This document shows positions 8,018 to 17,210 of a stretch of DNA of 64,000 nucleotides, in pieces. Source of the stretch: Methanofollis liminatans DSM 4140 (lineage in GTDB: Archaea > Halobacteriota > Methanomicrobia > Methanomicrobiales > Methanofollaceae). Position numbers and translations under genes: made by a program. The notes below the pieces were generated by a model that did not search any database, was not told where the DNA came from, and worked only from the letters and a program-made list of their open reading frames with translations. Position 1 is the stretch's first letter, and each line of letters begins with the position of its first letter. The stretch lies in contig NZ_CM001555.1 of NCBI RefSeq assembly GCF_000275865.1, forward strand, positions 2,010,967 through 2,074,966, given 5' to 3'.

Positions 8018-8887
8018 TCATGGTGAGCACAGCGCCAGCGTCGAAGAAGAAGAGGCCGGGACGAATCCCCCGGTCAGAAAATCCGCCGCCCGCTGCGCAT
8101 CCGTCGCCGCCCGCACCACATCGGCCGCCGACCCCTTCCGGATATGCCCGAGCCACCCGGCGATATAGGCCGCCGTGTTCTCCTGGAGCGGCGGCGTATC
8201 GATCCCGCACATCGCACACAGAAACGCCGCCCCCATCTCCGCCGTCAACTCCTCCCGGGAATACCGCTCGCTCCCGAACCGCACCGCCTCCGTGATCCCC
8301 TCCCGGTTCAGCCGGTGCGCCGCCCCGCTCCAGTGGGTGAGTTCATGAAAGAGCGTCGCATAATAGGCCTCCGCCGAGGTGAACCGCCCCGCCGGCGGCA
8401 TCAGGATCACATCCCGCCCCGGCGCATAGGCCGGCTCCCCCGGGAGGACCCGGGGCTCGTTCTGCCTGAGGATCCCCTCACACGACGCAATCGGCCGCAC
8501 CTCCCGCCCCTCGGGCACCGTCACGCCCTCGCACTGTCCGATATGGAAGACCTTGTAGCACCGCACCAGGGGCCGATCCCGCAGGCCCCGCACGAGCACC
8601 TCGTCGCCCTGGTCGTTCACCTCCCGGCGGCACTCCTCCATCGACCAGAAGACCACCATCCCCGCGGCCCGCTCCCCCCGCCGCACATAGCCGCCCATCT
8701 GCCGCACCTGGTTATAGGTCCCCCACCAGGGCGACCCGGCCAGGAGGATCCGGTTGATCCCCCGGTACGGCCGGCCCGTGAGGACGTTGCAGGGGGTCAT
8801 CCCCTGCCAGGTCTGCCGCCACGGCACCGTGCCGGATGCAAGAGAGGAGAGGATCCTCTCCCGCACCTGCTCGTAGACCGACGCCAT
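8018..8887 (-). CDS. ArdC-like antirestriction protein with zincin metallopeptidase domain
   Basis: 289 residues. The N-terminal half resembles the ArdC single-stranded-DNA-binding domain (VYEQVRERI, GTVPWRQTW, YRGINRILL). The C-terminal half is a zinc-dependent polyvalent peptidase-like domain with HELTHWSG (residues 181-188) and a downstream glutamate in EELTAEMGAAFL. ArdC proteins are carried by plasmids and integrative elements and protect incoming single-stranded DNA from restriction. It is the last gene of a tightly overlapping five-gene operon, its ATG overlapping the previous stop (ATGA). Its presence marks this as mobile DNA. Extreme C-terminus is serine-rich and may be poorly conserved. 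Confidence 0.88.
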   Translation of the reverse strand: MASVYEQVRERILSSLASGTVPWRQTWQGMTPCNVLTGRPYRGINRILLAGSPWWGTYNQVRQMGGYVRRGERAAGMVVFWSMEECRREVNDQGDEVLVRGLRDRPLVRCYKVFHIGQCEGVTVPEGREVRPIASCEGILRQNEPRVLPGEPAYAPGRDVILMPPAGRFTSAEAYYATLFHELTHWSGAAHRLNREGITEAVRFGSERYSREELTAEMGAAFLCAMCGIDTPPLQENTAAYIAGWLGHIRKGSAADVVRAATDAQRAADFLTGGFVPASSSSTLALCSP

Positions 8888-9963: not shown

Positions 9964-10119
9964 ATGATAATGGATCTCATCGAAGTCTCGATCAGGGGAT
10001 ATGAAGTGCGGGAGAAGACTGTCACCAAGACCGGGAACAGCGGCCACGTGATGGTGCCCCCTTCATGGATCGGGAAGCGGGTCAAAATTATTCTGCTCGA
10101 TCCCGTTGAGGAAGAGTGA
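9964..10119 (+). CDS. DUF2080-like (transposon-encoded/AbrB-like) small protein
   Basis: 51 residues, translated by eye because it is very short. The C-terminal half, KTGNSGHVMVPPSWIGKRVK, matches the short swapped-hairpin pattern of DUF2080 'transposon-encoded' proteins, which look like AbrB-type DNA-binding modules (G-x-SG-x-V-x-VP-x-x-W-x-G-K-x-V). A second ATG at 9970 could also start translation. It faces away from the ArdC operon across a shared promoter region, so it could be that operon's regulator; this is inference. Confidence 0.7.
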   Translation: MIMDLIEVSIRGYEVREKTVTKTGNSGHVMVPPSWIGKRVKIILLDPVEEE

Positions 10120-10456
10120 TCCCGCTCTCCCGTCCAGGGTCCAATCGCAACGACTGCCCCCCTGAAAGGGGGGAGGAGGCCCGAAGGGCCGGGCGGGGGT
10201 GATGCCTATCGCCGCGTGCGGCGGTAGGGGGCACAGCGCAGCGTCCAGGAGCCGGGAGGCGTGCCCCGCAGGGTGACGCCTCCCGGCGGTTCTCAGCGGA
10301 GCCGGCACGGGCCGAGCCTGGGCCGCGAGGTCCGTGCGGGCGTACACCCGCACCAGAACACGCACGAAACGAGGCGGTGATGGCCGGTGAGCCTGCATCC
10401 TTGCGAACCGGTCATGCCCGCCGGCCCCACCTCATCCTGACATCACAATTGAGCAC
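10120..10456. other. Non-coding, hairpin-rich region
   Basis: No believable gene. At least three perfect inverted repeats: CCCCCC-tgaaa-GGGGGG (10157-10173), GGCCC-gaa-GGGCC (10178-10190) and GCCGGGAGGCGT/ACGCCTCCCGGC (10251-10262 and 10276-10287, 12-base stem, 13-base loop). It lies between convergent genes and next to the iteron cluster. It might be terminators, a structured RNA, or part of a replication origin. Confidence 0.5.
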
Positions 10457-10457
10457 T

Positions 10458-10539
10458 GATATGCGCAGATCACATATCCGATCACATAAACGAGGGGATA
10501 TGTGATCGATATGTGCAGATCACATAGCGGATCACAAAC
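10458..10539. repeat. Iteron-like repeat cluster
   Basis: Two direct repeats of about 33 bases start 50 bases apart (10458 and 10508), both beginning GATATG-Y-GCAGATCACATA and continuing to a second GATCACA. An inverted copy GATATGTGATC (10497-10507) pairs with GATCACATATC (10468-10478). The core GATCACA thus occurs four times directly and once inverted in 82 bases. The cluster sits between convergent genes rather than in front of one, which favours a replication origin over an operator. Confidence 0.65.
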
Positions 10540-10747
10540 CCCGGCGTTCGCTCCCGCCCGGCAGGTAGCGATACCGGCTGCCCTTCCCCACGCCCTCGCG
10601 GACAATCGCGGGCTCTTCGTGCTGCACCTCTTTCATCACCCGCACCACCTGATGCCGGTCCAGGTGTGCGATCTGCCGGATCTCCGCCGCTCCCCCTCGG
10701 GATGAACCGGACGCGAACCAGCACATCAACCGGGTTGCAAACCACAA
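10532..10747 (-). CDS. Winged-helix DNA-binding protein
   Basis: Up to 71 residues from a TTG at 10747. The segment AAEIRQIAHLDRHQVVRVMKE is a helix-turn-helix and GKGSRYRYLP looks like the wing. The N-terminus is uncertain: another frame (from 10766) reads LVRVRFIPRG just before the G-rich stretch at about 10685, so a frameshift or an internal start is possible. Its stop codon lies inside the second iteron. A regulator or a replication initiator binding these repeats is plausible but not shown. Confidence 0.6.
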   Translation of the reverse strand: MWFATRLMCWFASGSSRGGAAEIRQIAHLDRHQVVRVMKEVQHEEPAIVREGVGKGSRYRYLPGGSERRGL

Positions 10748-12919: not shown

Positions 12920-12950
12920 ATCTACCTTGACCGCCCATGTTCTCTCGACC

Positions 12951-13193
12951 ATGGAGGAGAGGAGCACCCGGGAACTGGTCATCGAGACCGCCCGGGACGT
13001 GAAATGGATCTGCCGGACCCTGCGGAGGATGGAGGAGGAGGGGACCTGCCGCGAGGAGCGGCTCCGTGCCCTGGAAGGGTGGCAGAGCGAACAGGTGGGC
13101 GAGAGCCGGCGGGATCGGCAGATCGCCGCCGGGGCCGGCGGGATCGTGGGCGGGGCGGTGGCTATCGTGCTGCAGATGTTTGGGTGGGGGTGA
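12951..13193 (+). CDS. XhlA-like coiled-coil plus C-terminal membrane-anchor protein
   Basis: 80 residues from the ATG at 12951. A charged helical part (RDVKWICRTLRRMEEEG, then RLRALEGWQSEQVGESRRD) is followed by one C-terminal hydrophobic helix (AAGAGGIVGGAVAIVLQMF). This is the architecture of XhlA/haemolysin-type phage membrane proteins associated with holins. Resemblance is by layout, not by a proven match. A 24-base piece of its 3' end is duplicated at 14941, on the far side of the DUF4062 gene. Confidence 0.6.
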   Translation: MEERSTRELVIETARDVKWICRTLRRMEEEGTCREERLRALEGWQSEQVGESRRDRQIAAGAGGIVGGAVAIVLQMFGWG

Positions 13194-13395
13194 GGGGTTA
13201 CCCCGTTGCCCCGGGCACCATCACGCACTGATCACGCAGATATCCGCATCCTGCCGTGGTGACCTCTTCGGCGATGGCGACGTCGTTGTTTCGGGATGCT
13301 CCTGCTCGCCCGTCTAGAGACAGGTGAGGGCGTCGCGGAAGGAGGCGACACCCCGCCCCCGCGCAAGACGCTCACGCTCGCCGACGGCGCTCATC
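13194..13395. other. Intergenic, no gene seen
   Basis: About 200 bases between the XhlA-like gene and the convergent DUF4062 gene. GC-rich, no coding support. It would be the place for transcription termination of both. Confidence 0.4.
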
Positions 13396-14868
13396 TTAAC
13401 CGCCGATAATCTCCCAACGGCCGCCTTTCCTTGGACCTACCCGTTTGAGCCGACCGGCCTGCTTCAATTGCCGGATCTGCCATTCAATCCCTTTCGGCGT
13501 GATACCGATCTGCTCTGCGAGCTCTTTTGTACTGATGGCCGGGTCGGCTGCGATCAGGGCCAGCATTTTTTCCCTGGTGTTCTCCCTAGTTTCTTCCCTA
13601 GTTTTATCCCTAGTTTCTTCCCGAGTTTCGCCGGCACCTCTGTTCTGGACCCGGCGGATGGTCGTCTGGAACCCGTCGCTGACGGCGAACGCCGGCTCCG
13701 GCAGACCTGCCTCGGTGCAGCGCCGGATCATGTCCCGCGTCCCTGTGCCCATCCGCTCGATATAGCCGGCGAGATACATCGGTTCGGCGAGGAGGGGGTT
13801 CGCCGGCACCGAGCCATGGGCCTCCCGGAGTTTTTCGAGGGTCAGGGACGGCGGGAGGGTGCCGGGGTTCCAGACTTCCAGGCGGTCGGCGAAGAGCATC
13901 ACCTGCACGCTGCCGTTGCTGGTGTAGTCGCGGTGGGCGACGGCGTTGACGATCGCCTCCGCCACCGCCTCCTTCGGGATCTCGTAGCGGACCGGCGCCT
14001 GCGGACCGGCCTCGCGGGTGCCGACCGAGAGGGCGATCTTGCTTAAGACGAAGTCCACCGCCGCATCCACGAGATCGAAGACCGTGCCTTTGTAGACCTG
14101 GTAGGACGGGATCGGTTTGGCCACCTCGGTGCCGTGGAAGTGGGCGCACTTGATCTCGGAGGAGATCAGGAACCGTTGCGGCCGGTTCCCGAAGAGGAGG
14201 ACCGCCGCGTTTGTCACCTTTCCGTCGTCGAGGAGGTTCAGGTGCGCCAGCAGTTCATGAGGAGAAGCGTCCCCGGCGAGGGGGAACCGGCGGGTCGCTC
14301 TGGCCGTGCGGATGAACCAGGCCATCCGCTCAGGGTCCAGGTCTCCGGGCATCGCCTTCATGCACGGGGCCGCGTCGAAGGGGCCGGAGCGGATGAGCTG
14401 TTTCTCCTCGAGGTACTCGACGAGCGCCGCATACAGCCCGGCGACCAGTTCCGAGGGGGTGTTGAACCGCTTCCGGATCAGCCCGGCCTCTGCCCTGCCG
14501 ATGAGCGCACGCATCTTCGGGTGACGGGCGGCGTCGTCCGTGCCCCTGACGTAGATGAGCCGGTACTTGCCTTCGGTGGTGGCGAGGTCGAACTCCCGTT
14601 CGGTCGGCGAGAGCCCTCCGGCGTTTTCAGAGCCGTAGTCGTTCCCGAAGAGTCCGACATAGATGTCGCAGCGCCTGACCTCGTCGAGGTACAGGTCGTC
14701 GGTGCGGCGGTCGGCGGCCGGGACGTCCTCGAAGAGGAAGACCTCAAAGAACCGCCGCATCAGTGCGTCGCCCCGCAGGTAGTCGCGGAGGGCCGCCCGT
14801 TCCCCGGCGAACTCCTTCTGCACGCTGCTGATGAAGATGCGGACGGGGGTGAGGGCGAAGGGGGGCAT
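13396..14868 (-). CDS. DUF4062 / RecG-like ATPase-fold / winged-helix fusion protein
   Basis: 490 residues in three parts. Residues ~8-160 match DUF4062 (VRIFISSVQKEFAGERAAL, CDIYVGLFGNDYG), a module seen in NTPase and signalling proteins linked to defence. Residues ~185-400 match the Schlafen/RecG-like C-terminal ATP-binding fold (AVAEAIVNAVAHRDY, EVWNPGTLPPSL, GTGTRDMIRRC). A repetitive linker of TREE/TREN units (~residues 415-440) leads to a winged helix (ISTKELAEQIGITPKGIEWQI). The linker reflects repeated ctagttt/cttccctagttt DNA around 13585-13625. A regulator or abortive-type sensor is possible; no function is known to me. Confidence 0.8.
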   Translation of the reverse strand: MPPFALTPVRIFISSVQKEFAGERAALRDYLRGDALMRRFFEVFLFEDVPAADRRTDDLYLDEVRRCDIYVGLFGNDYGSENAGGLSPTEREFDLATTEGKYRLIYVRGTDDAARHPKMRALIGRAEAGLIRKRFNTPSELVAGLYAALVEYLEEKQLIRSGPFDAAPCMKAMPGDLDPERMAWFIRTARATRRFPLAGDASPHELLAHLNLLDDGKVTNAAVLLFGNRPQRFLISSEIKCAHFHGTEVAKPIPSYQVYKGTVFDLVDAAVDFVLSKIALSVGTREAGPQAPVRYEIPKEAVAEAIVNAVAHRDYTSNGSVQVMLFADRLEVWNPGTLPPSLTLEKLREAHGSVPANPLLAEPMYLAGYIERMGTGTRDMIRRCTEAGLPEPAFAVSDGFQTTIRRVQNRGAGETREETRDKTREETRENTREKMLALIAADPAISTKELAEQIGITPKGIEWQIRQLKQAGRLKRVGPRKGGRWEIIGG

Positions 14869-16157: not shown

Positions 16158-17210
16158 TTGACTGTAAAAATCTGGCTTGGCAGCCTGGACGAACTGAATG
16201 CATGGGATGAACCGGTCTTCTGGACCCCTGAATCAGAACAAAACCCTCATCTGTTGATATCCGGGGCTTCAGGATCGGGAAAGACAGAGACCCTGAAGGT
16301 GATCTGTGAGGAACTGAATCGTCAGAATATCCCCCTGCTGATCTTTGATTTCCATGACGATTTTCTGGGGTTTGGATCGAATATTGTCAATGAAGATAAA
16401 ATCCGGATCCATCCCCTGCAGATCCTCGTCGGCGAGAAACCGAAGGATGTGGTCTATAAGGTCTCATCCATCATCAGGCACACCTTCAATGGCATCACAG
16501 ATGTCCAGGAGGGGACGTTGCGAGAGGCAATGAGGTTGTTTTACACCGATTCCGGGATCGATGATCTCAACAGACCTCTCGCGACCGAGACCCCCCTGCT
16601 GCCATTTTCGCAGTTTAAATACTATATTGAGATGACATCCTCAGAACAGCGTACGATGAACAGTCTGAAGATAAAACTGGACATCCTCTTTGATTATGAA
16701 TTGTTCCAGGCATCTGGGGATGCTGTCAATTTCGACTCGCTTCTGTCGTCATCGACAGTGTTCCAGTTGAAGAATGCTCCAAGTGACGATGTGAAACAGA
16801 TCGTTGCCGATTTGATGATCAACAAATTGATCCAGTACTCCTATCGCCTTGAAAAGACCAACACTGTACGATTGTATTGTATCCTGGATGAAGCCCACAG
16901 GATGACCTATAAGGGTTCCCCGATCGATACCCTCTTTCGGGAAGCACGGAAATATGGCATCGGTGTTATTTTAGCATCGCAGCGGGCGATCGATTTCAAT
17001 GAGACGCTTCTTGCAAATGCGGGCACGATCATCACCCTGAAACAGAATCTTGTAAAGGATGCCGGGTATATTGCGAAGAATAAATGGGCGGACAAGCAGG
17101 TCCTGCTGAATGCTCGCCCGGGGTGTGGGTTTATCAAACGGTCAAGTGAGAACCGGGCAAAGCAGATTCAGGTCGTTCCGCTCGGCGAGAGGGCGAAGAA
17201 CCAGATTTGA
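16158..17210 (+). CDS. HerA/VirB4-like DNA-translocating ATPase
   Basis: 350 residues from a TTG preceded by ggagcaag. Walker A is GASGSGKTE (residues 36-44) and Walker B is LYCILDEAH (DEAH at 244-247); EARKYGIGVILASQ is the HerA/FtsK-type helix and sensor segment, with a probable arginine finger near the end. There is no N-terminal HAS barrel, so it is a short, single-domain member. HerA-like ATPases paired with nucleases or unknown effectors are a repeated theme in defence modules. The partner here is the upstream duplicated-domain protein. GC is low for the genome, indicating transfer. Confidence 0.85.
   Translation: MTVKIWLGSLDELNAWDEPVFWTPESEQNPHLLISGASGSGKTETLKVICEELNRQNIPLLIFDFHDDFLGFGSNIVNEDKIRIHPLQILVGEKPKDVVYKVSSIIRHTFNGITDVQEGTLREAMRLFYTDSGIDDLNRPLATETPLLPFSQFKYYIEMTSSEQRTMNSLKIKLDILFDYELFQASGDAVNFDSLLSSSTVFQLKNAPSDDVKQIVADLMINKLIQYSYRLEKTNTVRLYCILDEAHRMTYKGSPIDTLFREARKYGIGVILASQRAIDFNETLLANAGTIITLKQNLVKDAGYIAKNKWADKQVLLNARPGCGFIKRSSENRAKQIQVVPLGERAKNQI

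Follow-up and report, generated by a model that had tools for sequence, protein, structure and literature searches.

A repeat array behind a remnant Schlafen-type gene of Methanofollis liminatans as a putative 3' site of the gene's own C-terminal winged helix

The repeat array and the remnant gene

The window analysed here is a stretch of 64,000 nucleotides of the Methanofollis liminatans DSM 4140 chromosome (C1:2010967-2074966), in which a short repeat array adjoins the 3' end of a small reading frame. The features concerned are the following.

10458-10536, no strand assigned: repeat array made up of two 29-nt direct repeats that enclose an inverted 12-mer; found in the same place in same-genus relatives
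10468-10474, minus strand: core TGTGATC (in the sense of the gene)
10480-10486, minus strand: core TGTGATC, 12 bp from the copy at 10468
10501-10507, plus strand: inverted core copy, inside 10496-10507
10518-10524, minus strand: core TGTGATC
10530-10536, minus strand: core TGTGATC, 12 bp from the copy at 10518, in which the remnant gene has its stop codon
10532-10747, minus strand: 71-codon ORF, remnant of the C-terminus of a SLFN_AlbA_2/HATPase_c_4/tandem-wHTH gene, with a TTG start as listed and homology to residues 528-570 of a 572-aa relative
13220-13238, minus strand: remnant of a second array, probably related, with TGCGTGA twice at a distance of 11 bp; the heptamer also occurs in the array of an HATPase_c_4 gene of the same genome at 220 kb

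Two exact copies of GATATG[C/T]GCAGATCACATA were found on the plus strand, at 10458-10476 and 10508-10526, with the 50-base period that had been predicted originally. When up to three mismatches were allowed, 0.03 matches to this pattern were expected and two matches were obtained in 0 of 100 dinucleotide shuffles, which indicates that the repeat is not due to chance. The copies extend into 29-nt direct repeats (10458-10486 and 10508-10536, 90% identity), and between them lies the inverted copy GGATATGTGATC (10496-10507), likewise predicted, which is complementary to 10468-10479 at 12 of 12 positions. The array measures 79 bases, instead of the 82 first given. Its smallest repeat unit is GATCACA/TGTGATC, and the window has five core copies, of which one is inverted and stands between two tandem pairs with a 12-bp period. 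The tandem copies are phased and lie directly 3' of the stop codon, which falls in the first core; phased tandem copies amounted to 21 pairs when 1.1 were expected. With no mismatch, the paired pattern has the window array as its sole site in the 2,475,100-base chromosome; with two mismatches, two other chromosomal sites were detected and the reversed control pattern gave one.

The remnant gene ends (TGA at 10532-10534) inside the second direct repeat. To the left, the nearest plus-strand ORF is DUF2080 (9967-10119), which converges with the remnant ORF; both points agree with the original prediction. The 71-aa ORF aligned solely with residues 528-570 of the 572-aa relative (74% identity, E 1.5e-14), in other words with its C-terminal HTH and wing, and it is therefore considered as a remnant of the parent gene. 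What had been called a winged-helix gene is thus one in part: the last HTH and the wing are retained, by homology to the modelled full-length protein, but helix 1 of the wHTH is missing and the search of the ORF against Pfam matched no family, SLFN_AlbA_2 and HATPase_c_4 being absent from the remnant. Judged by this alignment, the window gene is a copy without its 5' ~527 codons, in which the array and the last HTH-wing were retained. As helix 1 is missing, the remnant may not bind; the unit in the window is decayed and has probably ceased to function as a complete unit.

The full-length parent protein

Homologous C-termini were found in 9 of the 12 genomes of the same family. In genome G008, the relative forms the C-terminal end of a reading frame of 572 aa that encodes SLFN_AlbA_2 and HATPase_c_4 domains, and the parent protein is made up, in this order, of a SLFN_AlbA_2 nuclease-type domain, an HATPase_c_4 ATPase of the histidine-kinase type and tandem winged helices. 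In the model of a 567-aa relative (18-sequence alignment; pLDDT 86.6, pTM 0.60), two C-terminal winged helices were observed. The nearest solved structure, 3LMM, belongs to an uncharacterised Corynebacterium protein; it is the best Foldseek match and matches the profile almost end to end (E 7.2e-58). The residues E20, F26, K27 and D62 (L121 numbering) are invariant or at least 90% conserved. The N-terminal domain of the parent resembles mammalian Schlafen N-domains, and animal Schlafen-type proteins are tRNA/RNA nucleases.

Relatives were matched in 98 of 199 genomes by an order-wide search, and the named collection comprised 95 bacterial relatives, of which 80 were kept; the closest named relatives belong to Methanoculleus, Methanoregula and Methanospirillum. 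The genome of M. liminatans itself contains three HATPase_c_4 genes, and in none of the three does the C-terminus resemble the window remnant.

The protein architecture is already known. PMC12839542 reports a wide occurrence of Schlafen RNase-histidine kinase-wHTH proteins in the vicinity of BREX systems and states that systems linked to Schlafen are able to take part in the defence of prokaryotes against phages. The Schlafen RNase-minimal histidine kinase-wHTH proteins reported there have the domain order of our full-length parent, whereas both the Schlafen and the ATPase part are missing from the window copy. That paper uses none of the words inverted repeat, direct repeat, operator and iteron, and no description of a 3' array of Schlafen/HATPase_c_4/wHTH genes was found in the openly available literature, mainly titles and abstracts.

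Arrays behind the stop codons of relatives

Among ten same-family loci inspected, seven had a clear array immediately behind the stop codon (L005, L006, L008-L012), and the arrays of three (L007, L013, L014) were degraded or partial. The repeats are therefore present near homologous genes; their absence would have spoken against the original prediction. Different repeats occupy the same place in archaeal and bacterial relatives (AATGTGA, TTTGGGA, GTTCTTA, TATGAAC and TGTCCAT, among others), and TTATGGA, TAATGTC, ATGCTCA, TCCAATT and AACGCAC are further types seen after the stop codons of relatives.

A mechanical test was applied to the 160 bp after the stop codon, in which direct and inverted 8-mer pairs were compared with dinucleotide shuffles (p <= 0.01). 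Significant 3' repeats were obtained for 56 of 125 relatives and for 29 of 383 other ORFs of the same loci (Fisher 2.6e-19), these loci having been drawn by homology search, with relatives that are non-independent and control ORFs that are unverified. By this test of the 160-bp 3' flank, 69 of the 125 relatives are without a significant array; on the 5' side, significant repeats were present in 14/126. At least three copies with a 9-12-bp tandem were observed in 36/125 relatives versus 9/383 control ORFs, direct repeats in 46/125 versus 17/383, and inverted repeats in 26/125 versus 23/383. In the 56 positives, 53 of the 88 adjacent same-strand copies were separated by 9-12 bp, the mode being 11 bp, about one DNA turn; further groups of spacings lay at 20-22 bp and 84-86 bp. 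The first copy of the array was at most 30 nt from the stop codon in 46 of these 56.

Plain intrinsic terminators were discarded as an explanation, since the excess concerns direct repeats and many significant control flanks resemble terminator hairpins by eye. A QKY-type C-terminal motif, as first defined, was not significantly associated with the absence of an array (arrays in 4/12 versus 52/113), and a narrower C-terminal class, chosen after the data had been seen, carried an array in 1/9.

Three further types of loci were recorded. An Mrr-type restriction endonuclease gene (L212:1043-1966, plus strand) has copies of TTTTCTG with an 11-bp spacing behind it, so that 3' arrays may extend beyond Schlafen-type genes. 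A minus-strand ORF of L148 (5670-6638), matching no Pfam family, has a five-copy TTTGGGA array at its 3' side. At L089, L098 and L099, 22-bp direct repeats (CTTACTG...) are located about 110 nt past the stop codon, unlike the phased arrays.

Repeat and C-terminal wing switch together

Nine closely related bacterial genes, with bodies that are 81-96% identical, were distributed into three tail/array classes. The tail GERGRxVxYR is paired with AAATGCA/AATGCAC (L156, L171, L177, L196), the tail GxKKGAWYExRA with ATAACCG/AACCGCG (L155, L191) and the tail GxRKxxWYERGxK with GCTCATA/CGCTCAT (L152, L166, L180, with a single clear copy in L166). Between L155 and L171, the bodies are 96% identical, the last 26 residues are 25% identical and the arrays are unlike. 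Similarly, L061 and L065 have bodies that are 92% identical with unlike C-terminal domains and arrays, and past its new array L065 retains a stretch of 52 nt that is 83% identical to the last part of the L061 array. L019 and L011 diverge from about 75 nt before the stop codon through the array; by eye, they have a near-identical recognition helix and a common TGTGA core, and the wing and the flanking bases differ.

Array similarity was found to track C-terminal identity beyond the identity of the bodies (partial r 0.20, a value reached in 0 of 2000 permutations), and it also correlates with body identity (r 0.51). One counter-case to a strict code was encountered, as L103 and L085 have a common core with C-termini that are 56% identical.

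Due to the family-wide 3' position and to the switching of the repeat together with the wing, the array is very probably cognate to the C-terminal domain. We therefore regard it, on comparative grounds, as the likely 3' site to which the C-terminal domain encoded by the gene itself would bind. The proposed tie between iteron-like repeats and a winged-helix gene is supported in this sense, as the repeats recur beside homologous genes and change when the recognition part at the C-terminus changes. A cognate 3' array that is swapped with the wing amounts to a predicted and directly testable DNA address for each protein, and the wing-to-sequence pairs represent a natural set for learning winged-helix recognition. 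The 3' arrays also offer a way, from sequence only, to spot intact units, decayed remnants and specificity switches.

A possible role in transcription

The main rivals to the control by docking that is proposed below are transcriptional regulation and a part in mobility; both may be partly true. Since wHTH proteins commonly bind operators, the array could be an operator by which the gene is autoregulated through its 3' end or an antisense promoter, or which serves the next downstream gene. This would be in keeping with a rough count on 43 units, in which the next ORF (at least 100 aa) was co-directional in 23, convergent in 11 and undetermined in 9. However, no neighbour is constant, the neighbouring genes and their direction vary, and the next gene in the window is convergent, with its start far away. 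Furthermore, the core is nearly missing upstream of the gene (4 matches in 13,080 bp versus 1.6 expected; 2/43 units), and a promoter operator of the gene itself was rejected for this reason. The earlier argument that the 3' position disfavours a classical operator was upheld, and we consider the array unlikely to be an operator.

Gene and array are shared as a unit

Fourteen pairs of related units were compared; in 13 of them no similarity was found in the available flanks, some of which are short, and one pair had common flanks. In 10 of the 14, homology ran past the stop codon and ended 94-142 nt beyond its start. Gene and array are thus shared as a unit between unrelated contexts, and we regard the gene as mobile. 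The analysis likewise shows the 3' position of the arrays, their family-wide occurrence, their helical spacing and their switching with the wing. In five Acidimicrobiia loci (L159-L163), the gene and about 2.8-2.9 kb upstream of it are common, with 96-98% identity, and the homology stops 11-22 nt past the stop codon in 8 of 10 pairs (not in L161/L162 and L159/L163).

Long direct duplications of neighbouring sequence were detected at 17/110 units versus 6/194 controls (Fisher 1.5e-4). The order may be a full gene, the unit and a second copy of the 3' end of that gene (L143, L155, L055; reversed in L048). At the window copy (L001 in the input), no flanking direct duplication was found. In PMC1643837, an 'insertion with long target duplication' is reported for restriction-modification genes. 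The likeness to that case lies in a unit placed between long direct duplications of host sequence; the difference is that the genes studied here are not restriction-modification genes and that the window copy has no duplication.

The limits of homology, the dissimilar flanks and the duplications are all features to be expected if the array were the end of a mobile element, where the unit would be cut, copied or joined and the protein would serve as a recombination factor, the long duplications being the trace of this event. However, the protein contains no transposase or recombinase domain, the array is present at one end only, as the count on the 5' side indicates, and the duplications, none of which is seen at the window copy, start up to several hundred nt away from the array. 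Moreover, comparable duplications are known from the report on restriction-modification genes in PMC1643837. A mobile-element end is for these reasons, like an operator, an improbable role for the array.

An RNA element or a replication origin as unlikely alternatives

The location right behind the stop codon and the inverted copies of many arrays could also suit a 3' UTR RNA element, such as a terminator or a structure bound by the Schlafen domain, but this is very unlikely, as the excess is mainly one of direct repeats with DNA-helical spacing and the Rfam matches in the window consist of one tRNA only.

Still less probable, and to be given hardly any weight, is the proposal from which this work started, namely that the array is the replication origin of a plasmid or an integrated element. 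Phased iterons do adjoin a wHTH gene, as in plasmid iteron origins, where phased short direct repeats stand beside the gene of the presumed binding protein, and a G011 contig of 30.8 kb carries one of the arrays, though the ends of this contig do not overlap. In contrast to such origins, the repeats come after the gene, the relatives are chromosomal in complete genomes, and the parent is a Schlafen-type/ATPase/wHTH protein; neither it nor the window ORF belongs to an initiator family, and no initiator gene adjoins the array. No plasmid relative came to light: a search with the parent protein at E <= 1e-20 gave 0 matches among 72,556 plasmid records. The two Orc1/Cdc6 genes are located elsewhere, at 135 kb and 1574 kb, at least 437 kb from the array at 2021 kb, and the AT content at the array is 0.36-0.51, with no AT-rich element. 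Since many intact relatives carry a matching array in the same place, an origin is improbable. Four weak phage matches were noted; when the 71-aa ORF was compared with viral contigs, 20 stretches were matched and none was confirmed.

Proposed docking in cis on the array

For the intact unit, the working that we favour, tentatively, is that docking in cis on the array controls the Schlafen-type nuclease. The protein, probably dimeric, would use the winged helices at its C-terminus to dock on tandem half-sites that are separated by one turn of the DNA, an arrangement suited to a dimer, and the docking place would be directly behind the protein's own gene. In this way, docking would position and control a defence- or conflict-type nuclease at its own locus. 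Binding to the array, dimerisation, the activity of the Schlafen nuclease and its control by docking are points that we infer. The gene is likely a defence gene, and the 3' array a likely, little-noticed part of it.

Truncated copies and the DNA site as a possible antidote

Among close relatives from the order-wide search, hand-picked pieces that kept the C-terminus outnumbered those with the N-terminus only by 10 to 2 (one-sided p 0.02). The former were G000, G001, G002, G003, G004, G011, G059, G076, G119 and G167, and the latter G009 and G163. The count excluded G144, which lies at the end of its contig, the decayed G010, and G050 and G127, in which a larger part of the broken gene remains; G008:C169, at a contig end, was excluded from the N-terminal count. 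An array was present in 7 of the 10 C-terminal remnants (G000, G001, G003, G004, G011, G076, G167). The comparison of the G000 and G003 remnants gave a dN/dS of 0.28 over 42 codons, a value which says little on selection, as the truncations may be recent.

An extension of docking in cis, which we consider doubtful, is that of a widespread class of mobile conflict gene with a DNA site as its antidote: docking on the array would keep the nuclease off, and loss of the unit or displacement by an invader would free it. Solo wHTH and array remnants, as in the window, would then be domesticated antidotes. The 10:2 excess of C-terminal remnants fits this possibility and is suggestive only, not a proof.

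The neighbourhood of the array

The second array remnant of the window (13220-13238) is situated about 160 nt past the stop codon of a DUF4062/HATPase_c_4/HTH gene (13396-14868, minus strand). A 40-bp direct repeat, 85% identical, is present on both sides of this gene and is the 3'-terminal part of a small gene (12927-13193).

The stretch between DUF2080 and the array (10120-10457) is GC-rich (AT 0.20-0.38), contains no convincing gene and is, by eye, partly common to G003; it is possibly an RNA or the end of an element. Further to the right, a HerA-type ATPase gene (16158-17210, plus strand), with DndH and mad8 as best PADLOC matches, adjoins a gene of 322 aa without significant family match, and the two are possible defence genes near the array. 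Finally, an ArdC-type anti-restriction protein with ArdcN and MPTase-PolyVal domains is encoded at 8018-8887 on the minus strand, which hints at a former mobile element.
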